A DNA stretch of 64,000 nt, from assembly GCA_943788135.1 (NCBI GenBank), contig CALSPC010000003.1, forward strand, positions 496,001-560,000. Direction: 5' to 3'. A model generated the notes under the pieces. The model saw nothing but the letters and a program-made list of their open reading frames with translations, did not search any database and was not told the origin of the DNA. The DNA is from an uncultured Paracoccaceae bacterium. GTDB lineage: Bacteria > Bacteroidota > Bacteroidia > Flavobacteriales > Flavobacteriaceae. How positions within the stretch are numbered: the stretch's first letter is position 1; every line of letters starts with the position of its first letter. The position numbers and the translations under genes were made by a program. Positions 53,377 through 64,000 of the stretch are shown here, one piece after another.

Positions 53377-55503
53377 ATGGCAAGAGATTTAAGATTTACA
53401 AGAAATATTGGTATTGCAGCTCATATTGATGCTGGAAAAACCACGACGACAGAACGTGTCCTTTATTATACAGGAGTTTCACACAAAATTGGAGAAGTAC
53501 ATGATGGTGCTGCAACAATGGACTGGATGGAGCAAGAGCAAGAACGTGGAATCACGATTACCTCTGCAGCGACAACCTGTGAGTGGAAATTCCCAATCGA
53601 AAATGGAGAACCAACTCCAGAAACTAAAGGCTACCACTTTAATATTATTGACACCCCTGGCCACGTTGATTTTACCGTTGAGGTAAACAGATCATTACGT
53701 GTATTAGATGGGTTAGTATTCTTGTTTAGTGCAGTGGATGGTGTTGAGCCACAATCTGAAACAAACTGGAGACTAGCAGACAACTACAAAGTGCCTAGAA
53801 TAGGTTTTGTTAACAAAATGGACCGTCAAGGATCAGACTTTTTAGGCGTTTGTCAGCAGGTCAAAGACATGTTAAAATCAAACGCAGTGCCAATCGTTTT
53901 AAACATTGGTGATGAAGATGATTTTAAAGGTGTTATCGATTTAGTTAAAAACCGTGCTATTGTATGGCATGATAAAACTCAAGGCGCCACTTTCGATGTT
54001 ATCGAAATCCCTGAGGATATGAAAGAAGAAGCTCGAAAATACCGTGCACTCTTAATTGAAGAAGTTGCAAGTTATGACGAGAATCTTTTAGAGAAATTCA
54101 TGGAAGATGAAGAGTCTATCACAGAAGAAGAAGTGCATGCTGCACTTAGAGCTGCTGTTATGGACATGGCTATTATTCCTATGATTTGTGGGTCAGCATT
54201 TAAAAATAAAGGCGTTCAGTTTCTATTAGATGCTGTATGTCGTTATTTACCTTCTCCAACAGATAAAGAAGGTATTGTAGGTGTGAATCCAGATACAGAT
54301 CAAGAAGAACTTCGTAAGCCAGATGTAAAAGAGCCGTTTGCGGCTTTGGCGTTTAAAATTGCAACCGATCCTTTTGTTGGACGTTTAGCATTTTTCCGTG
54401 CCTATTCAGGTCGTTTAGATGCAGGTTCCTATGTTTTAAATAACCGTTCAGGTAAAAAAGAACGTATCTCACGTATTTATCAAATGCATGCTAACAAGCA
54501 AAATGCAATTGATTTTATTGAAGCTGGAGATATTGGTGCAGCTGTTGGATTTAAATCTATCAAAACAGGTGATACACTTTCTGCAGAAAAACATCCTATT
54601 GTTTTAGAATCAATGGACTTTCCGGATCCTGTAATTGGAATCGCAGTAGAGCCAAAAACAAAAGCGGATGTAGATAAATTAGGAATTGGACTTGCTAAAC
54701 TAGCCGAAGAAGATCCAACATTTACTGTGCGTTCAGACGAAGCTTCAGGTCAAACAATTATCTCTGGAATGGGTGAATTGCACTTAGATGTAATTGTAGA
54801 TCGTTTACGTCGTGAATTTAAAGTAGAAGTTAATCAAGGTCAACCACAAGTAGAATACAAAGAAGCGATCACACAAACTGCCGATCACAGAGAAGTTTAC
54901 AAGAAACAATCTGGTGGTCGTGGTAAATTTGCTGATATTGTATTTACAATTGAGCCAGCAGACGAAGGTGTTGTAGGGCTTCAATTTATTTCTACTATTA
55001 AAGGTGGAAACGTGCCAAAGGAATTTATTCCTTCGATAGAAAAAGGGTTCAAAATGGCAATGGTCAATGGGCCACTTGCAGGTTACGAAGTTGATGCTGT
55101 CAAAGTAACATTGAAAGATGGATCTTACCACGATGTGGATTCGGATCAACTCTCATTTGAATTAGCTGCCAAGCTTGGGTTTAAAAACTCAGCAAAAGCA
55201 GCCAAAGCAGTGATCATGGAACCAATCATGAAATTAGAAGTTATTACTCCTGAAGAAAACATGGGAGATATTGTAGGAGACCTTAACCGTCGCCGTGGTC
55301 AAGTAAGTGACATGGGCGATAGAGCAGGTGCAAAAACTGTAAAAGCTACAGTGCCTCTTTCAGAAATGTTTGGTTATGTAACCACGCTTAGAACGCTATC
55401 ATCAGGTCGTGCAACTTCAACAATGGAGTTTTCACACTATGCTGAAACGCCTTCTAACATTTCAGAAGACGTTATTAAAGAAGCTAAAGGAATCCAATCT
55501 TAA
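53377..55503 (+). CDS. fusA: Elongation factor G
   Basis: The GTPase that drives translocation and, with RRF, ribosome recycling. The 708-residue protein has the P-loop A-H-I-D-A-G-K-T (15-22), switch [14 protein letters not shown], domain IV with G-G-R-G-K-F-A-D and the domain V V-N-G-P-L-A-G-Y and R-R-G-Q segments. It is encoded in the str operon without a tuf gene after it; rpsJ follows at 11 nt. Confidence 0.98.
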
Positions 55504-55514
55504 AAGTTAAGAAC

Positions 55515-55820
55515 ATGAGTCAAAAAATCAGAATAAAATTAAAGTCTTACGATCATAACTTAGTAGATAAGTCTGCTGATAAGATTGTGAAAACCGTAAA
55601 AAGTACAGGTGCTATTGTAACAGGACCAATTCCATTACCAACGCACAAAAAATTGTTCACTGTATTGCGTTCTCCTCACGTTAACAAAAAATCGAGAGAA
55701 CAATTTCAATTAAGCTCTTACAAAAGACTATTAGATATCTATAGTTCTTCATCAAAAACAATCGATGCATTGATGAAACTTGAACTACCTAGTGGTGTAG
55801 AAGTAGAGATTAAAGTGTAA
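55515..55820 (+). CDS. rpsJ: 30S ribosomal protein S10
   Basis: A 101-residue S10 (NusE in antitermination complexes). The family pattern [18 protein letters not shown] and the long-loop [12 protein letters not shown] are complete. In Proteobacteria rpsJ opens the S10 operon; here it ends the str operon and is cut off from rplC by a very strong terminator and a new promoter, the order typical of Bacteroidota. Confidence 0.99.
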
Positions 55821-55850
55821 TTATAACTTTACCGCTATTTAATGCGATAA

Positions 55851-55898
55851 CTATATGCAAAAAAAACAGTACTATAGTACTGTTTTTTTTGCATATAG
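55851..55898. terminator. Perfect 48-nt palindromic terminator between str and S10 operons
   Basis: The sequence 55851-55898 is an uninterrupted inverted repeat centred between 55874 and 55875: CTATATGC, A8, CAGTAC, TA|TA, GTACTG, T8, GCATATAG. The stem with its A and T tracts is symmetric and should stop RNA polymerase from both sides. It begins 30 nt after the rpsJ stop. Confidence 0.93.
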
Positions 55899-55959
55899 AT
55901 ATAGTGTGGTATTAGGGCGTCTTTAAACTGTAAAGTATTTAAAATAAGTTCTAATTATT

Positions 55960-55991
55960 TTAGGTGAATAGATTAAATTTATCTAAATTTG
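55960..55991 (+). promoter_or_regulatory. Promoter of the rplC (S10-spc) operon
   Basis: A perfect -7 box TAAATTTG (55984-55991) preceded, after 21 nt, by TTA (55960-55962), a one-mismatch -33 element. The transcript would start near 55996-55998 and have a leader of about 160 nt, unusually long for this organism, where other predicted leaders are 0-65 nt. Confidence 0.65.
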
Positions 55992-55996
55992 CAGCT

Positions 55997-56160
55997 CGAA
56001 AAACATAGGTCACGACCTTGTTGTTTGACATAGTCACTGAAAATCAGTGATTTACATGTCCCAAGCTTAGTGCGAGGGAAAAACGGAAAAAGTACAATTC
56101 AAGGGTTGAAATGTGTTTTGACCCTTATTTTTTTTAAAAAAATTAAATAAATAAATAAAT
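55997..56160 (+). promoter_or_regulatory. Structured leader RNA of the rplC operon with a terminator-like hairpin
   Basis: Three-tier stem: CTTG (56017-56020)/CAAG (56062-56065), GACAT (56027-56031)/ATGTC (56056-56060), TCACTG (56034-56039)/CAGTGA (56045-56050) with an AAAAT loop. A second hairpin AAGGGT (56101-56106)/ACCCTT (56121-56126), with inner A-T and G-T pairs, is followed by A and T8 (56128-56135): an intrinsic-terminator layout only 25 nt before the rplC ATG. CCTTG (56016-56020) can also pair with CAAGG (56100-56104), giving a possible antiterminator. This fits autoregulation by a ribosomal protein of the operon (L4 or L3 by analogy); the regulator is not identified. Confidence 0.6.
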
Positions 56161-56778
56161 ATGTCTGGGTTAATAGGAAAAAAAATCGGAATGACCAGCA
56201 TCTTCGACGCGAATGGTAAAAATATGCCATGTACCGTTTTAGAAGTTGGACCATGCGTTGTTACCCAAGTCAGAACCGAAGAAGTTGATGGCTATGCAGC
56301 CCTTCAACTAGGTTTCGATGACAAGACAGAAAAAAGTGCTACGAAAGCTGATTTAGGTCACGCCAAGAAAGCAGGTACTTCTGTTAAGAGAAAAGTCGCG
56401 GAATTTAAAGGATTTGACGAGGAGTACAAATTAGGAGACAGTATAACAGTAGACCATTTCACCGAAGGTGAATTTGTTGATGTTTCTGGAACTTCAAAAG
56501 GTAAAGGATTTCAAGGGGTTGTAAAACGTCATGGATTTGCAGGTGTGGGTCAAGCGACTCACGGTCAGCACAACCGTTTACGTGCACCAGGATCTATTGG
56601 TGCGGCTTCGTATCCAGCTCGAGTTTTCAAAGGAATGAAAATGGCAGGACGAATGGGAACCGACACAGTTAAAGTTCAAAATTTAAGAGTTTTAAAGGTA
56701 GTAACTGAAAAAAATCTACTAGTGATTAAGGGTTGTGTCCCTGGTCCTAAAAACGCTTATGTAATTATTCAGAAATAA
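56161..56778 (+). CDS. rplC: 50S ribosomal protein L3
   Basis: A 205-residue L3, one of the first proteins bound in 50S assembly, reaching toward the peptidyl-transferase centre. Hallmarks: G-x-K-x-G-M-T at the start, K-G-K-G-F-Q-G-V-x-K-R-H (about 115-126) and the [15 protein letters not shown] tip loop. The start ATG follows a stretch of A/T only, with no Shine-Dalgarno sequence. Overlaps rplD by one base (TAATG). Confidence 0.99.
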
Positions 56779-57407
56779 TGAAAGTAGCAGTTTTAGATTT
56801 AAACGGAAAAGATACAGGTAGAAAGGCAGACCTTTCTAAAGATGTATTTGCTATAGAGCCAAATAATCATGCGGTATACCTAGACGTTAAGCAATATCTT
56901 GCAAACCAACGTCAAGGAACTCATAAATCAAAAGAAAGAGCTGAGATTTCGGGAAGTACTCGAAAAATCAAGAAACAAAAAGGAACTGGTACAGCTCGTG
57001 CGGGTAGTATCAAATCCGGTGTATTTAGAGGTGGAGGTCGTATGTTCGGTCCAAGACCAAGAAATTACGGGTTCAAGTTAAATAAAAATGTAAAGCGTTT
57101 AGCACGTAAATCTGCATTTACAATTAAGGCTTCTGAAAAATCAATAACGGTTATAGAAGACTTTACGTTTGACTCTCCAAAAACAAAGCATTTTACAGCG
57201 GTATTAAAGGCCTTAGGTCTTGATACCAAAAAATCATTGTTTGTCTTGGGTGGCTCAAATAATAATGTATATTTGTCGTCGCGGAATTTAAAGCGTTCTG
57301 AGGTCTTAATTGACTCAGAAATAAGTACTTATAAAATTCTAAACGCGAATCAAGTTGTGCTTTTTGAAAGTGCATTGAAAAATATTGAAACGAATTTAAG
57401 TAAATAA
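56778..57407 (+). CDS. rplD: 50S ribosomal protein L4
   Basis: A 209-residue L4 with the extended loop reaching into the exit tunnel: R-Q-G-T-H-K-S-K-E-R-A-E-I-S-G-S-T-R-K-I-K-K-Q-K (about 45-68; macrolide-relevant loop) and G-T-G-T-A-R-A-G-S. In enterobacteria free L4 represses its own operon through the leader; the structured leader upstream of rplC makes this a candidate here too. Confidence 0.98.
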   Translation: MKVAVLDLNGKDTGRKADLSKDVFAIEPNNHAVYLDVKQYLANQRQGTHKSKERAEISGSTRKIKKQKGTGTARAGSIKSGVFRGGGRMFGPRPRNYGFKLNKNVKRLARKSAFTIKASEKSITVIEDFTFDSPKTKHFTAVLKALGLDTKKSLFVLGGSNNNVYLSSRNLKRSEVLIDSEISTYKILNANQVVLFESALKNIETNLSK

Positions 57408-57414
57408 GAAAACC

Positions 57415-57705
57415 ATGAGTATCTTAATTAAACCAATAATCACAGAGAAAGCTACACTAGCGAGTGAGTTGAAAAACTGCTACAGTTTTCAGGTGAATAC
57501 GAAGGCGAACAAGGTAGAAATCAAAAAAGCAGTTGAAGCTGCTTACGGTGTTTCTGTTGAAAAAGTTCGTACAATAAATGTCCGTCCAGATCGAAAAACC
57601 AAGTTTACAAAAACGGGGATTCAACATGGTAAAACAAATGCTGTTAAAAAGGCACTTGTACAACTGGCGGAAGGTGAAACGATTGATTTATACGCTAATA
57701 TCTAA
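57415..57705 (+). CDS. rplW: 50S ribosomal protein L23
   Basis: A 96-residue L23 at the tunnel exit, docking site for trigger factor and SRP. The I-I-T-E-K-A-T start, the Y-S-F-Q-V helix-strand unit and A-V-E-A-A-Y-G-V-x-V-x-K-V-R-T are present; length normal. 7 nt after rplD, 10 nt before rplB. Confidence 0.98.
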   Translation: MSILIKPIITEKATLASELKNCYSFQVNTKANKVEIKKAVEAAYGVSVEKVRTINVRPDRKTKFTKTGIQHGKTNAVKKALVQLAEGETIDLYANI

Positions 57706-57715
57706 TTAGACAAAC

Positions 57716-58540
57716 ATGTCAGTAAGAAAATTAAAACCAATCACCCCAGGACAGCGATTTAGAGTAGTAAACGGTTATGACGCCATTACTACTGATAAGC
57801 CGGAGAAGAGTTTATTAGCTCCGAAAAAACGTTCAGGTGGTAGAAACAGTCAAGGAAAAATGACCATGCGCTATATCGGTGGCGGTCATAAAAAGAGATA
57901 TCGTATTATCGATTTCAAAAGAAACAAAGCTGGGATTCCAGCCGAGGTGAAATCTATAGAATACGATCCAAACAGAACGGCATTTATTGCACTTCTAAAT
58001 TATCAAGATGGTGAAAAACGCTATATCATTGCACAAAACGGTCTTCAAGTAGGACAGAAGTTAGTGTCTGGTAAAGGTGTTGCTCCAGAAATTGGAAATG
58101 CAATGCCATTGAGCGAAATTCCATTAGGAACAATCATTTCTTGTATCGAACTTCGTCCAGGTCAAGGTGCTGTTATGGCACGTAGTGCTGGAGCTTTTGC
58201 TCAATTAATGGCAAGAGATGGTAAGTTTGCTACGGTAAAATTACCATCAGGTGAAACACGCTTATTACTATTAGATTGTAACGCCACTATTGGAGTTGTG
58301 TCTAACTCGGATCACCAATTATTGGTGTCTGGTAAAGCAGGTAGAAGCCGTTGGTTAGGAAGACGTCCAAGAACACGTCCAGTTGTGATGAATCCAGTCG
58401 ATCACCCAATGGGTGGTGGTGAAGGAAAATCATCAGGTGGACACCCACGTTCAAGAAACGGTATTCCAGCGAAAGGATTTAGAACACGTTCTAAAACTAA
58501 AGCAAGCAATAAGTATATTATAGAACGTAGAAAGAAATAA
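57716..58540 (+). CDS. rplB: 50S ribosomal protein L2
   Basis: A 274-residue L2, needed for subunit joining and peptidyl transfer. The conserved H-P-M-G-G-G-E-G loop with the key histidine (about 223-230), the OB/SH3 RNA-binding domains ([15 protein letters not shown]) and the basic C-terminal tail are all present. Confidence 0.99.
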
Positions 58541-58546
58541 TAAGAC

Positions 58547-58825
58547 ATGGCAAGATCATTAAAAAAAGGACCTTTCGTTCATTATAAATTAGAGAAAAAA
58601 GTAGCTGCTAATGTAGAAGCTAACAAAAAAACTGTTATCAAAACTTGGTCTAGAGCCAGTATGATTACACCAGATTTTGTTGGACAAACCATTGCAGTGC
58701 ACAACGGCCGTCAATTTGTTCCAGTTTATGTAACTGAAAACATGGTAGGTCATAAACTAGGAGAATTTTCACCAACACGTTCATTCCGTGGGCATGCAGG
58801 TGCTAAAAATAAAGGTAAAAAATAA
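58547..58825 (+). CDS. rpsS: 30S ribosomal protein S19
   Basis: A 92-residue S19 in the 30S head, partner of S13. [11 protein letters not shown] at the start and the [22 protein letters not shown] and F-R-G-H motifs identify it. 6 nt after rplB. Confidence 0.99.
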
Positions 58826-58830
58826 GAGCT

Positions 58831-59241
58831 ATGGGAAGTCGTAAAAAACAAATGGCAGACGCTATTAAAGCTGGTAAAAAGCAAATTGCTTTTGCAAAGC
58901 TTAATAACTGTCCTACGTCACCAAGAAAAATGCGCTTAGTAGCTGATTTAGTAAGAGGCGAAAAGGTAGAAAAAGCACTTAATGTTTTGAGATTTAGTTC
59001 CAAAGAAGCTTCACGTCGTTTAGAAAAATTAGTTCTATCGGCTGTTGCAAACTGGCAATCTAAAAACGAAGATGCAAACATTGAAGAGGCTGATCTTTTT
59101 GTAAAAGAAATTACAGTTGATGGAGGGTCTATGTTAAAGAGACTACGTCCAGCACCTCAAGGTCGTGCACACAGAATTAGAAAAAGATCCAATCATGTTA
59201 CAGTGGTACTTGGAGCTAAAAATAACACACAAAGCAATTAA
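58831..59241 (+). CDS. rplV: 50S ribosomal protein L22
   Basis: A 136-residue L22, lining the exit tunnel. [17 protein letters not shown] opens the globular domain and the tunnel hairpin [16 protein letters not shown] is intact, with no deletion at the macrolide-relevant tip. It has about 20 extra N-terminal basic residues compared with the E. coli protein. Confidence 0.98.
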
Positions 59242-59244
59242 TAA

Positions 59245-59958
59245 ATGGGACAGAAGACAAATCCAATAGGAAATCGCCTTGGAATTATCAGAGGATGGGA
59301 ATCTAACTGGTACGGAGGAAACGATTACGGAGACAAGCTTGCTGAGGATGATAAAATCAGAAAGTATATTTTTGTTCGTTTAGCAAAAGCTAGTGTATCT
59401 AGAGTAATAATCGAAAGAACTCTTAAACTTGTAACCGTTACTATCACAACGGCTCGTCCTGGTATCATTATTGGTAAAGGCGGTCAAGAGGTAGACAAGT
59501 TAAAAGAGGAATTAAGAAAACTTACTAGTAAAGAAGTTCAATTAAACATCTTTGAGATTAAACGTCCAGAATTAGATGCGTTTTTAGTAGCAACTAGTGT
59601 TGCTCGTCAAATTGAAAATCGTATCTCTTACAAACGTGCAATCAAAATGGCTATTCAGGCTACGATGCGTATGAACTCTGAAGGGATTAAGATTCAGATT
59701 AGTGGTCGTTTAAATGGTGCTGAAATGGCACGTAGCGAACACTATAAAGATGGAAGAATTCCTTTATCAACATTTAGAGCTGACATAGACTATGCATTAG
59801 TTGAAGCCCATACTACTTACGGTAGATTAGGGATCAAAGTATGGATTATGAAAGGTGAAGTGTATGGAAAACGTGAGTTATCTCCTTTAGTAGGTCTTTC
59901 AAAAGGACAAGATAAAGGGAACCGTTCATCGAATTCAAAACCTCGCCGTAGAAAGTAA
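59245..59958 (+). CDS. rpsC: 30S ribosomal protein S3
   Basis: A 237-residue S3 at the mRNA entry channel. N-terminal [13 protein letters not shown], the KH motif G-I-I-I-G-K-G-G (about 71-78) and the helicase-active R-A-D-I-D-Y and G-V-K-V-W-type (G-I-K-V-W) segments are present. The basic C-terminal tail is short. 3 nt after rplV. Confidence 0.98.
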
Positions 59959-59979
59959 TTTTTTATAAATTAAAAGAAA

Positions 59980-60399
59980 ATGTTACAACCAAAAAGAACA
60001 AAATTTCGTAAAGTCCAGAAAGGACGCATGAAAGGAAACTCGGAAAGAGGACACCAACTTTCTAACGGAATGTTTGGTATAAAATCACTCGATTCAAATT
60101 TTTTAACTTCACGTCAAATTGAAGCTGCTCGTATTGCTGCAACACGCCATATGAAAAGAGAAGGTCAGTTATGGATTAAAATATTTCCAGACAAACCGAT
60201 CACCAAAAAGCCGCTTGAAGTACGTATGGGAAAAGGAAAAGGTGCCGTTGAATATTGGGCAGCTGTTGTGAAACCTGGAAGAATATTATTTGAAGTTGGT
60301 GGAGTGTCACTAGACGTTGCAAAAGAAGCATTGCGTTTAGCCGCTCAAAAGTTACCAGTTAAAACAAAATTTGTAATCGCTAGAGACTACGAAGCTTAA
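59980..60399 (+). CDS. rplP: 50S ribosomal protein L16
   Basis: A 139-residue L16 beside the A-site t[11 protein letters not shown] at the start, [10 protein letters not shown], and [12 protein letters not shown] near residues 77-88 are conserved; Arg77 region, hydroxylated in some bacteria, is present. Gap of 21 nt after rpsC. Confidence 0.98.
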
Positions 60400-60412
60400 T
60401 TTTATTGATATT

Positions 60413-60604
60413 ATGAAACAATCTGAAATTAAAGAACTATCGACAGCTGAGTTGCAAGAGAAACTTAGTGATACGAAAAAGACTTACGCGGATCTGAAAA
60501 TGACCCACGCAATATCACCACTCGAAAATCCAATCCAATTACGGTCTGTAAGACGATCTGTAGCACGGTTGGCAACGGAGTTAACAAATAGAGAAGTGCA
60601 ATAA
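60413..60604 (+). CDS. rpmC: 50S ribosomal protein L29
   Basis: A 63-residue two-helix L29 next to L23 at the tunnel exit. K-E-L-S-T-A-E-L-Q-E-K-L (helix 1) and R-S-V-R-R-S-V-A-R-L-A-T-E-L (helix 2) match the family. 13 nt after rplP. Confidence 0.97.
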   Translation: MKQSEIKELSTAELQEKLSDTKKTYADLKMTHAISPLENPIQLRSVRRSVARLATELTNREVQ

Positions 60605-60621
60605 TTGTATTCTGCTGAAAG

Positions 60622-60879
60622 ATGGAAAAAAGAAATTTAAGAAAAGAACGTATAGGCGTTGTTACAAGTAACAAAATGATGAAATCGATTGTGGTTTCAG
60701 AAGTGAAAAAAGTAAAACATCCTATGTATGGAAAGTTCGTGCTAAAGACTAAGAAGTATGTAGCACATGACGAACAAAATGACTGCAACGAAGGAGATAC
60801 TGTAAGGATCATGGAAACAAGACCCTTAAGTAAATCTAAATGTTGGAGACTAGTAGAAATCATTGATAGAGCTAAATAA
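60622..60879 (+). CDS. rpsQ: 30S ribosomal protein S17
   Basis: An 85-residue OB-fold S17, binding helix 11 of 16S r[11 protein letters not shown]-x-K-S-I-V-V, H-P-x-Y-G-K and D[14 protein letters not shown] are present. 17 nt after rpmC; the rplN ATG follows 2 nt after its stop. Confidence 0.98.
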
Positions 60880-60881
60880 TT

Positions 60882-61250
60882 ATGGTACAACAAGAATCAA
60901 GATTAAAAGTAGCTGATAATACTGGAGCAAAAGAGGTGTTAACCATCCGTGTTCTAGGAGGTACGAAACGTAGATATGCATCCTTAGGTGACAAGATCGT
61001 TGTGACGGTTAAAGATGCTACACCAAACGGAAATATCAAAAAAGGAGCAGTTTCAACAGCCGTAGTGGTACGAACTGTAAAAGAAGTTAGACGTCCAGAT
61101 GGATCTTATATTAGATTTGATGACAATGCTTGTGTTCTTTTGAATCCTACTGGTGAAATGAGAGGTACTCGTGTTTTCGGACCTGTAGCAAGAGAGCTTC
61201 GTGATAAGTCATTCATGAAGATTGTATCATTAGCACCTGAAGTGCTTTAA
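60882..61250 (+). CDS. rplN: 50S ribosomal protein L14
   Basis: A 122-residue L14 at the subunit interface, binding site of the silencing factor Rsf[19 protein letters not shown] start, K-K-G-x-V-x-x-A-V-V-V-R-T and [13 protein letters not shown] identify it; length is exactly that of most bacteria. Confidence 0.99.
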
Positions 61251-61260
61251 TTTAAGAAAC

Positions 61261-61572
61261 ATGGGAAAGCTAAAAATAAAAACAGGAGATACCGTAAGAG
61301 TTATTGCTGGAGATCATAAAGGATCTGAAGGTAAAGTTATTAAGGTATTGATAGCTAAAAATAAAGCGATCGTTGAAGGGGTAAACATGGTTAAAAAACA
61401 CATGAAGCCTAGTGCTCAAAGCCCTCAAGGTGGTATCGTTGAAAAAGAGGCGTTAATCCAAATATCAAACTTATCGTTGTTAACTTCAAAAGGAGAAACA
61501 ACTAGAGTTGGGTACAAAACGGAAGACGGTAAGAAAGTAAGATTTTCAAAAAAATCTAACGAGGTAATTTAA
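61261..61572 (+). CDS. rplX: 50S ribosomal protein L24
   Basis: A 103-residue L24, an early 50S assembly initiator. The KOW motif [15 protein letters not shown] (about 12-26) and G-V-N-M-V-K-K-H are present. 10 nt after rplN. Confidence 0.98.
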
Positions 61573-61577
61573 GAATT

Positions 61578-62129
61578 ATGGGATACATTCCAAGATTAAA
61601 ACAAGAGTATAAAGACAGAGTAATGTCTGCTCTTACAGAAGAATTCGGATATAAAAATGTAATGCAAGTTCCAAAACTGCAAAAGATAGTAATATCTAAA
61701 GGAGTTGGTGCTGCTGTTTCTGACAAGAAATTAATCGACTATGCAATAGACGAGATTACTAAAATTTCTGGACAAAAAGCAGTTGCAACAATATCTAAAA
61801 AAGATGTTGCAACATTCAAACTCCGTAAAGGGATGCCAATTGGTGTTAAAGTAACTTTACGTGGCGAAAAAATGTATGAGTTTTTAGATCGTCTTGTGAC
61901 TTCTGCACTTCCACGTGTTAGAGATTTCAACGGGATTAAAGCAAATGGATTTGACGGTAGAGGAAATTACAATTTAGGAATTACGGAACAGATTATTTTT
62001 CCAGAAATTAATATTGATAAGGTCAATAAAATTTCAGGAATGGACATCACATTTGTTACAGATGCCGATACCGATAAAGAAGCAAAATCATTATTAACAG
62101 AATTAGGGGTTCCTTTTAAAAAGAATTAA
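61578..62129 (+). CDS. rplE: 50S ribosomal protein L5
   Basis: A 183-residue L5, 5S rRNA-binding and in contact with S13 across the interface. [29 protein letters not shown] and G-L-P-type replaced by A-L-P-R-V-R-D-F are all family features. In E. coli S8 represses the spc operon through a site at the rplE start; the equivalent stem was not recognised here. Confidence 0.98.
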
Positions 62130-62132
62130 GCT

Positions 62133-62402
62133 ATGGCTAAAGAATCAATGAAAGCCCGTGAGGTCAAAAGAGCAAAGATAGTTGCTAAATATGCTGAAAA
62201 ACGCAAAGCGTTAAAAGAAGCTGGCGATTACCAAGGTTTACAAAAATTACCTGTAAATGCATCACCAATTCGTATGCATAACAGATGTAAACTAACCGGT
62301 CGTCCAAAAGGCTACATGCGTCAGTTTGGACTCTCAAGAGTTATGTTTAGAGAAATGGCTAACAATGGATTAATTCCAGGGGTCAAAAAAGCAAGTTGGT
62401 AA
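62133..62402 (+). CDS. rpsN: 30S ribosomal protein S14, zinc-independent form
   Basis: An 89-residue S14. The C-terminal half with [15 protein letters not shown] and F-G-L-S-R[20 protein letters not shown] is typical. It has only one cysteine, so it is the C-minus (zinc-free) long form. After it comes the largest gap of the cluster (60 nt). Confidence 0.98.
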
Positions 62403-62412
62403 AATTATAAAT

Positions 62413-62444
62413 TGGTTTCAGGTTCTAAAAAATAGAAAACCAAA
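62413..62444 (+). promoter_or_regulatory. Hairpin in the rpsN-rpsH gap
   Basis: TTGGTTTC (62413-62420) can pair with GAAAACCAA (62436-62444) with one bulged base; a competing inner pairing of GGTTCTA with TAG..AACC is possible. It occupies a 60-nt gap, while other gaps in rplC-rpsE are at most 21 nt. A processing or regulatory site is possible; there is no T tract for termination. Confidence 0.4.
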
Positions 62445-62462
62445 ACCGCAAATTAATACACT

Positions 62463-62861
62463 ATGTATACAGATCCAATAGCGGATTATTTAACAAGAAT
62501 TAGAAATGCAGTTCGTGCAAATCACAGAGTTGTAGAGATTCCTGCATCTAATTTAAAGAAAGAGATTACAAAAATATTATTCGAACAAGGATATGTTTTA
62601 AGTTACAAATTTGATGACACTACTGTACAAGGTACTATTAAGATAGCACTGAAGTACAATAAGGACACCAAAGAACCTGTAATCAAAAAAATCCAAAGAA
62701 TAAGTAAACCAGGTTTACGTAAATACTCAGGGTCTAACGATCATCCACGTATTCTTAACGGTCTTGGAATTGCAATTGTGTCAACGTCTCATGGCGTTAT
62801 GACTGGCAAACAAGCTCAACGAGAGAATGTTGGTGGTGAAGTATTGTGTTACGTTTACTAA
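62463..62861 (+). CDS. rpsH: 30S ribosomal protein S8
   Basis: A 132-residue S8, binding the central domain of 16S rRNA. D-P-I-A-D-Y-L-T-R-I-R-N-A opening and the C-terminal S-T-S-H-G-V-M-T-G-K-Q-A-Q-R-E-N-V-G-G-E-V-L-C-Y-V are complete. In enterobacteria S8 is the repressor of the spc operon; a hairpin in the gap just before this gene is a possible target. Confidence 0.99.
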   Translation: MYTDPIADYLTRIRNAVRANHRVVEIPASNLKKEITKILFEQGYVLSYKFDDTTVQGTIKIALKYNKDTKEPVIKKIQRISKPGLRKYSGSNDHPRILNGLGIAIVSTSHGVMTGKQAQRENVGGEVLCYVY

Positions 62862-62878
62862 TTTTAAAGATTTAAGAA

Positions 62879-63421
62879 ATGTCAAGAATAGGAAAAAACC
62901 CAGTAGCGATTCCAGAAGGAGTTACCATAGATATCTCTGATAACCTTATTACGGTTAAAGGTAAACTTGGTGAGCTTACTCAAGAATTCTCTGCTGTAAG
63001 TATCAAAATAGAAGAAGGTCACGTTATTTTAGAACGGCCTTCAGAACACAAAGATCACAAAGCAAAACACGGTCTTTACAGAGCTTTAATTTTTAATATG
63101 ATTGAAGGTGTAACCACTGGATGGTCAAAAGAATTAGAACTTGTAGGAGTTGGATATAGAGCTTCTAATCAAGGGCAAAAACTTGATTTAGCTTTAGGAT
63201 TTTCTCACAATATTGTTTTGGATATTGCTGCTGAAGTTAAAGTAGAAACAGTTTCAGAAAAAGGGAAAAACCCAATTATCAAATTAACGTCTCACGACAA
63301 ACAACTTGTAGGACAAGTTGCTGCAAAAATCCGTGGATTCAGAGCGCCTGAACCATACAAAGGAAAAGGGATTAAGTTCGTAGGCGAAGTATTAAGAAGA
63401 AAAGCAGGTAAATCAGCTTAA
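62879..63421 (+). CDS. rplF: 50S ribosomal protein L6
   Basis: A 180-residue L6 at the factor-binding site. [11 protein letters not shown] start, the G-V-T[16 protein letters not shown] linker and the C-terminal [10 protein letters not shown] are conserved. 17 nt after rpsH. Confidence 0.99.
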
Positions 63422-63431
63422 TAATTTAGTT

Positions 63432-63788
63432 ATGGCATTATCAAAAAACGATAGAAGACAAAGAATTAAAAACAGAATACGAAAAATTGTTTCTGGGACA
63501 GCGTCTCAGCCTCGATTAGCTGTTTTTAGAAGTAATAAAGAAATTTATGCTCAATTAGTAGATGACGTTACTGGTGTAACCATTAGTGCAGCATCTTCTA
63601 GAGATAAAGACATCAGTTCTGCTACAGGATCTAAAACTGAAATCGCAGCATTAGTTGGGAAGTCAGTGGCAGCAAAAGCATTAAAGGCTGGTGTTGAAAC
63701 TATCACTTTTGACAGAGGTGGTTATTTATATCATGGTAGAGTAAAATCATTAGCGGAAGGCGCTAGAGAAGCAGGACTTAAATTCTAA
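63432..63788 (+). CDS. rplR: 50S ribosomal protein L18
   Basis: A 118-residue L18, 5S rRNA binding. [13 protein letters not shown] basic N-terminus, R-L-A-V-F-R-S-N-K-x-I-Y-A-Q-L-V-D-D and [24 protein letters not shown] are complete. Confidence 0.99.
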
Positions 63789-63795
63789 AGAAATT

Positions 63796-64000
63796 ATGTA
63801 TCAAAAATACAAAAGTGCAGAACTAGTAAAACCAAGTGGATTGGAATTAAAAGATCGTTTGGTAGGTGTGCAAAGAGTTACAAAAGTAACAAAAGGAGGT
63901 AGAGCATTTGGATTTTCAGCGATTGTAGTTGTTGGAGATGAAGCTGGTGTCGTTGGACACGGTTTAGGAAAATCTAAAGATGTTGCAAGTGCAATTGCGA
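63796..64000 (+). CDS. rpsE: 30S ribosomal protein S5, 3' end outside window
   Basis: The first 68 codons of S5 are visible, starting at ATG 63796, 7 nt after rplR. The double-stranded-RNA-binding region is recognisable: [25 protein letters not shown] and [14 protein letters not shown]. The gene continues past base 64000. Confidence 0.97.

Follow-up and report, generated by a model that had tools for sequence, protein, structure and literature searches.

The leader of the Escherichia coli S10 operon precedes rpsJ. The operon is controlled by L4 through attenuation, and the sections of the source that treat this system describe E. coli-type sites as known in enterobacteria, Haemophilus and Vibrio, but not in Pseudomonas (PMC10931766). 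The same source describes how, in the Bacillus subtilis rplJL leader, binding of L10(L12)4 decides between antiterminator and terminator. Several of the ribosomal protein (r-protein) leader candidates of Eckert and Weinberg (2020) come from Flavobacteria or Bacteroidia (S4, S15, S16 and L13); Table 1 of that paper gives no rplC, L3 or L4 leader for Bacteroidota, its L4 entry being from Archaeoglobi (PMC7247131). Naville and Gautheret (2010) reported rpsL-leaders with potential alternative antiterminators, which are predicted attenuators of a ribosomal operon, and the words rplC, Bacteroidetes, Gramella and Flavobacter are absent from the main text of that paper (PMC2965389). For F. psychrophilum, section 19 of a transcriptome study lists new 5' elements, among which rplC does not appear (PMC9723704). 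In the open-licence papers searched, we found neither a report of the element described here nor an account of rplC-operon control in Flavobacteriaceae.

We analyzed a 64,000-nt stretch of DNA, hereafter the window, in which a structured leader stands before rplC. Like the E. coli S10 leader, this leader has a terminator before a cluster encoding L3, L4, L23 and L2; unlike the E. coli leader, which lies before rpsJ, it is found between rpsJ and rplC, directly before rplC, the comparison being one of descriptions. The likeness would make L4 the leading ligand candidate for the flavobacterial element. The element also resembles the candidates in PMC7247131, as presented there, in being structured and in preceding r-protein genes, and the rpsL-leaders, as described in PMC2965389, in being a predicted attenuator of a ribosomal operon, although the operon differs. 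The choice between antiterminator and terminator by r-protein binding that we propose below would be similar to that of the B. subtilis rplJL leader, which, in the account cited above, differs in its operon, its RNA (a kink-turn in the anti-antiterminator) and its ligand. We regard the element as a predicted r-protein operon leader, with a putative ligand, that would act by transcription attenuation and for which no earlier description was found. It probably adds to the cases in which control of the rplC cluster has evolved independently.

The leader upstream of rplC

In the window, fusA and rpsJ are followed by an inverted repeat, a promoter-like block, the leader, rplC, rplD, rplW and rplB (Table 1). 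These six genes were identified by NCBIfam; the ORFs 3' of rplB are read as further r-protein genes. The original prediction was of a long, attenuation-type leader before rplC, downstream of a promoter with a TAAATTTG box and containing a terminator. The sequence features on which it rests are present in the window. Specifically, the leader comprises 164 nt, from 55997 to the base preceding the rplC start; the box occurs as a consensus match for a putative promoter; and a G-C-containing hairpin is followed by A and then T8. We take TAAATTTG to be the -7 box of the Bacteroidota promoter consensus. The promoter-like block around it (TTTAGGTRRATAGATTAAATTTATCTAAATTTGCAGCTCG, window 55956-55996) is nearly identical in all eight aligned members of the window's genus. 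Inside this block, adjoining the -7 box, is a palindrome-like AGATTAAATTTATCT, possibly an operator.

Table 1. Positions of the genes and leader elements between fusA and rplD in the window.
Feature	Position	Strand	Basis or remark
fusA	53377-55503		NCBIfam
rpsJ	55515-55820		NCBIfam
Perfect inverted repeat and T8	55859..55890	+	Sequence; likely terminator of the fusA-rpsJ unit upstream, in the window's species
-7 box TAAATTTG of putative own promoter	55984..55991	+	Consensus match
P0, 9-bp hairpin immediately 5' of the core	56032..56052	+	Sequence varies among relatives
Conserved ACAUGU	56054..56059	+	Final U is the first base of P1
P1, UCC..GGA hairpin	56059..56079	+	Purine-purine oppositions and GC/GC inner helix
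AAAAACGG, conserved 3' flank of P1	56079..56086	+	First A paired within P1
Antiterminator hairpin (predicted)	56089..56119	+	Terminator G-run sits in its loop
Intrinsic terminator stem-loop (predicted)	56101..56126	+	Mutually exclusive with the antiterminator
T8 tract of leader terminator	56128..56135	+	Sequence
rplC (L3), first gene 3' of the element	56161..56778	+	NCBIfam TIGR03625
rplD (L4), candidate regulator	56778..57407	+	NCBIfam TIGR03953

From 5' to 3', the leader begins its structured part with the hairpin P0, whose sequence varies; ACAUGU and a second, small hairpin, P1, come next, and AAAAACGG is followed by an antiterminator that overlaps the intrinsic terminator. The segment at 55990-56163 folds to -40.1 kcal/mol (z -3.30), with one of 200 shuffles equally good. 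A terminator scan picks up the leader hairpin, yet it reports 13 sites in 54000-64000 versus 6.2 ± 2.7 in shuffles, so that the scan alone is weak evidence for the leader terminator. Searching the whole window against Rfam 15 yielded no matches at the gathering score; at 55800-56300 there were 24 sub-threshold matches, mostly microRNA models on the rpsJ terminator. A check for an existing Rfam family had been suggested with the original prediction, and no Rfam 15 family covers the region. As an Rfam family, the element could serve in the annotation of marine bacteria that are common.

Two further proposals, a three-tier stem at 56017-56065 and a switch based on alternative pairings of CCTTG, fared less well. 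The innermost hairpin of the stem, here named P0, has counterparts in relatives; the outer tiers, compared by eye, were not found conserved in seven relatives from the genus. Both motifs of the switch are present in the window (CCTTG at 56016-56020, CAAGG at 56100-56104). Among the same seven relatives, CCTTG occurs within 70 nt 5' of the core in two, and CAAGG at the foot of the terminator in none. The CCTTG pairing is not kept in the genus and was rejected as the switch, the conserved alternative being the local antiterminator.

Distribution and genomic position of the element

An rplC-guided search of 60 relatives returned a match in 50, and 30 loci were examined. ACAUGUCY-hairpin-GGAAAANNGG was found shortly 5' of rplC in 23 of these: a strict expression recovered 21, a looser one added L008, and L007 was recognized by eye in its upstream sequence. 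The core was thus present in 23 of 26 loci from the window's own family and in none of the four from other families. A covariance model of the core and terminator, R1, was based on 22 aligned leaders that had been found via rplC and had passed a loose core filter. In the window, R1 scored 100.5 bits at 56053-56148, and the next site scored 18.3. Because R1 was built partly from the window sequence, the real test is provided by matches in other genomes.

R1 was first applied to 95 of 148 loci, where it gave 88 true matches and left seven loci without one. At E ≤ 0.001, the model found a match in 241 of the 299 genomes searched from the window's family, in 217 of the 249 high-quality family genomes and in 190 of 236 genera; 58 of the 299 had no match at this threshold. 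A second match occurred in four family genomes, scoring at most 33.6 bits and lacking the core. A search of the order (148 genomes) returned 11 matches of at least 51 bits, all within the window's family. The best match outside the family scored 36.4 bits, and all 24 matches below 51 bits lacked the core and, in the stretch examined, an rplC start. A search of the class (198 genomes) returned three matches in the family and four outside it, the latter being plain terminators of 34-40 bits without the core. The weak matches, that is, those below 51 bits in the order, the second matches in family genomes, and the non-family matches in the class, are not the element.

Based on the record titles of core-pattern matches, the carrier family is taken as Flavobacteriaceae. 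Carriers among the matches listed in the core-pattern search include Winogradskyella, Polaribacter, Tenacibaculum, Maribacter, Zobellia, Gramella/Christiangramia, Cellulophaga, Lacinutrix, Aquimarina, Arenibacter, Allomuricauda/Muricauda and Leeuwenhoekiella. One genus represented by many genomes in the order sample (g146), which we suspect to be Flavobacterium, had no R1 match in nine of the ten genomes listed and, in the remaining genome, a single weak match of 27.1 bits without the core. One Flavobacterium sp. record (L101) carries the element, which argues against its simple absence from Flavobacterium. Of 27 non-carrier loci, from this family and others in the order, some have a promoter before rplC, some a plain hairpin and some a short gap. 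These other arrangements, together with the 58 family genomes without a match, indicate that the element is not needed everywhere. In three genomes from another family of the order (f5; L227, L232 and L234), rplC is preceded by a promoter-like site and by a leader that is short and of a different kind. This leader (about GGRAGNAGTATGCCTA...TTTCAGANATAGAAAT) is similar among the three and is perhaps an unrelated second rplC leader.

All 42 strong R1 loci examined sit just before rplC (39 by script and three with diverged cores by eye), a strong match being one of at least 51 bits and the set including the window's genome and some of the genomes from which R1 was built. Similarly, for 118 loci selected by the core pattern among the matches listed, rplC starts within 420 nt downstream in 115; the remaining three end before an rplC start could appear. 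As these 118 loci were selected by the core pattern, they do not report on the invariance of the core. Indeed, diverged cores exist, as exemplified by AAAUGU instead of ACAUGU. The element thus occupies a consistent place directly before r-protein genes, as expected of an r-leader.

We evaluated the position of rpsJ in 136 distinct leaders. The rpsJ stop lay at most 60 nt before the core in 85, 61-150 nt before it in 27, and over 150 nt before it in 18; the other six yielded no stop. Promoter matches of the Bacteroidota type separated rpsJ from the core in 2 of 85, 12 of 27, 16 of 18 and 3 of 6 of these leaders, respectively, as compared with 24% of shuffled 110-nt stretches; the close rpsJ cases offer less room for a match, and the consensus is the one assumed above. 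The element is usually intergenic between rpsJ and rplC, close behind rpsJ, and a separate promoter is the exception. The window's genus represents one lineage with a separate promoter-like site. Accordingly, the original assignment of rpsJ to a different operon holds for this genus but is atypical of the element, given the 85 leaders in which rpsJ ends within 60 nt of the core. Since the element stands before rplC whether rpsJ adjoins or a promoter-like site intervenes, it travels with rplC and not with rpsJ or a promoter.

The distance between the rpsJ stop and the core is bimodal, being 9-12 nt in 19 leaders and 23-59 nt in the 66 leaders that make up the 16-60 nt class. P0 is present in two of the former, in 61 of the latter and in 38 of the 51 other leaders. 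The spacing looks as if the hairpin and a terminating ribosome were interchangeable. A leader that senses translation, in which the ribosome finishing rpsJ reaches the core and alters its folding, would agree with short distances that mostly lack P0 and longer ones that mostly have it. We nevertheless consider this explanation quite improbable: rpsJ is more than 150 nt away in 18 of the 136 leaders, from the window's genus and others, and a promoter-like match intervenes in 16 of these 18, as compared with 24% of shuffled stretches.

A conserved core and two predicted folds

The terminator pairs covary, providing the compensatory changes that the original prediction had proposed to seek in relatives. 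Specifically, both sides have changed in six of the nine terminator pairs. For the three helices together, 95.9% of cells are paired versus 87.6% when shuffled. The covariation score was 0.351 versus 0.182 ± 0.007 for shuffles (0 of 500) and 0.014-0.084 for slid structures, calculated from an alignment (A2) that was fitted to the structure and that includes four spurious minus-strand rows arising from the near-palindromic terminator or element. Using a lax criterion without a shuffle control, a hairpin with a T-rich tail was detected in 135 of the 136 distinct leaders, the remaining leader being incomplete.

In the conserved antiterminator, AAAGUACA.UUCA is opposed to UGAA.UGUGUUUU, such that an A-rich arm, located 3' of the core and 5' of the terminator, pairs with the sequence that separates the two arms of the terminator. 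The antiterminator overlaps the terminator 5' arm, and its pairing is one that the terminator itself does not require. In 106 unique leaders, the energy of the antiterminator arms with their own partners was -6.44 kcal/mol, as compared with -4.14 ± 0.17 kcal/mol for permuted partners, and none of 10,000 permutations was as low. The arm-fit permutation gave 10 of 10,000 for eight representatives less than 75% similar. The own partner was in the best tenth of all partners for only 44 of the 106 leaders, as expected if many leaders are alike. Because the antiterminator loop holds the G-run of the terminator, the two folds are mutually exclusive. The leader is therefore predicted to contain both parts of a transcription attenuator, an intrinsic terminator and an antiterminator mutually exclusive with it, as well as the conserved, covarying RNA structure characteristic of r-leaders. 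Conservation, covariation and the fit of the antiterminator arms all point to an attenuation-type leader before rplC, as originally predicted.

The mean stability of the terminator was -13.4 versus -6.2 for the antiterminator, and in 94 of 106 leaders, including the terminator made the full fold better by over 2 kcal/mol. With a terminator so much more stable on average, the element might be a constitutive partial terminator that fixes the ratio of fusA/rpsJ to the rplC operon without a ligand, its core tuning termination or pausing, for example via NusA. The usual location close behind rpsJ would suit such a role. This reading is unlikely, however, as fixed attenuation would require no antiterminator that coevolves and no core under strong conservation, and as the element is kept in the window, where rpsJ has its own terminator and rplC its own promoter-like site.

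P1 occurs in three length classes. In the main class (64 distinct), two stacked positions are purine-purine in 62 and 61 sequences. Standard pairs of varied sequence replace these oppositions in 10 and 11 of the 11 distinct sequences of the shorter class, and the 7 distinct sequences of the longer class show a mixture. We infer that the purine-purine oppositions are sheared G.A pairs. At most a few nt separate the end of P0 from ACAUGU. The 40 nt 5' of the core folded better than shuffles, with a mean z of -2.19 and 81% below -1 (n = 134; mononucleotide shuffles).

The strongly conserved AUG of ACAUGUCC could be taken for the start of a leader peptide. This candidate, to which we assign next to no probability, was rejected on account of a stop after two codons in 56 of the 136 leaders, of widely varying reading lengths and of inner core lengths of 14-17, which shift the frame.

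Proposed control and candidate ligands

Comparative analysis shows a conserved core and, downstream in the leader, two predicted folds that exclude one another. We think it rather probable that these constitute an r-protein-bound transcription attenuator, conserved in Flavobacteriaceae, that acts in cis on the rplC-rplD-rplW-rplB-... operon. The antiterminator could form first, before the 3' arm of the terminator is transcribed; the completed terminator, usually the more stable fold, would end in a U tract. The r-protein that binds the core would be encoded in the operon itself: L4 (rplD) is the likeliest candidate, given its precedent in the E. coli S10 operon, and L3 (rplC), the product of the nearest gene, comes next. 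Positioned on the core, two nt from the antiterminator foot, the ligand would decide whether the antiterminator survives. An excess of free protein would favor termination, lowering the expression of rplC and the genes behind it separately from that of fusA and rpsJ, which lie upstream. By analogy with known r-leaders, free L4 or L3 would be the natural signal and termination the response.

Such an RNA switch probably helps flavobacteria adjust the supply of ribosome components to demand; a large part of the r-protein genes lies in the rplC operon. As a family-wide and nearly always single-copy attenuator, the element offers a defined test system and a new protein-RNA recognition problem.

Some r-leaders resemble an rRNA site. 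By sequence, no such resemblance was found here: the full core pattern had 14 mismatches at best against its own 23S rRNA, as compared with a mean of 13.8 for shuffled patterns. In lacking linear similarity to 23S rRNA, the core provides no mimicry argument for any ligand. This lack, together with the compactness of the core and its strongly conserved unpaired stretches, would also be consistent with binding of a small molecule, such as a stringent-response nucleotide, or of a general elongation factor instead of an r-protein. We judge this very unlikely. Among the loci examined, the element was found nowhere but before rplC, as would suit a ligand encoded by the rplC operon, and the core has, in our judgement, few pairs for a metabolite aptamer.

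Within the r-protein reading, we advance a more specific version only tentatively. The element may be an L4- or L3-sensing attenuator within the joined str-S10 cluster of Flavobacteriaceae, uncoupling the long series of downstream r-protein genes from EF-G and S10 through a compact core that does not copy 23S rRNA sequence, with P0 and a nearby rpsJ stop acting as interchangeable insulators of the core. Both the RNA family and its solution to the regulatory problem would then be new.

Several partial similarities to rRNA were also considered and rejected. The commonest P1 differs from AGYGGCGAGCGAACG of 23S rRNA by 2-3 mismatches of 15, which was taken as chance because the other P1 classes do not keep that sequence. 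Complementarity of ACATGTCC to GGACACGT (7/8) in two of four rRNA loci, and to GGAGATGT in a third, was likewise taken as chance. For GGAAAAACGG, no complement within one mismatch was found in the four rRNA loci.

Finally, L3 and L4 were compared between 24 carrier and 15 non-carrier loci, and the differences were few. Uncorrected for descent, the two groups differ at alignment column 162 of L4 (N or K), at its column 186 (K or other), and at columns 60 and 74 of L3.
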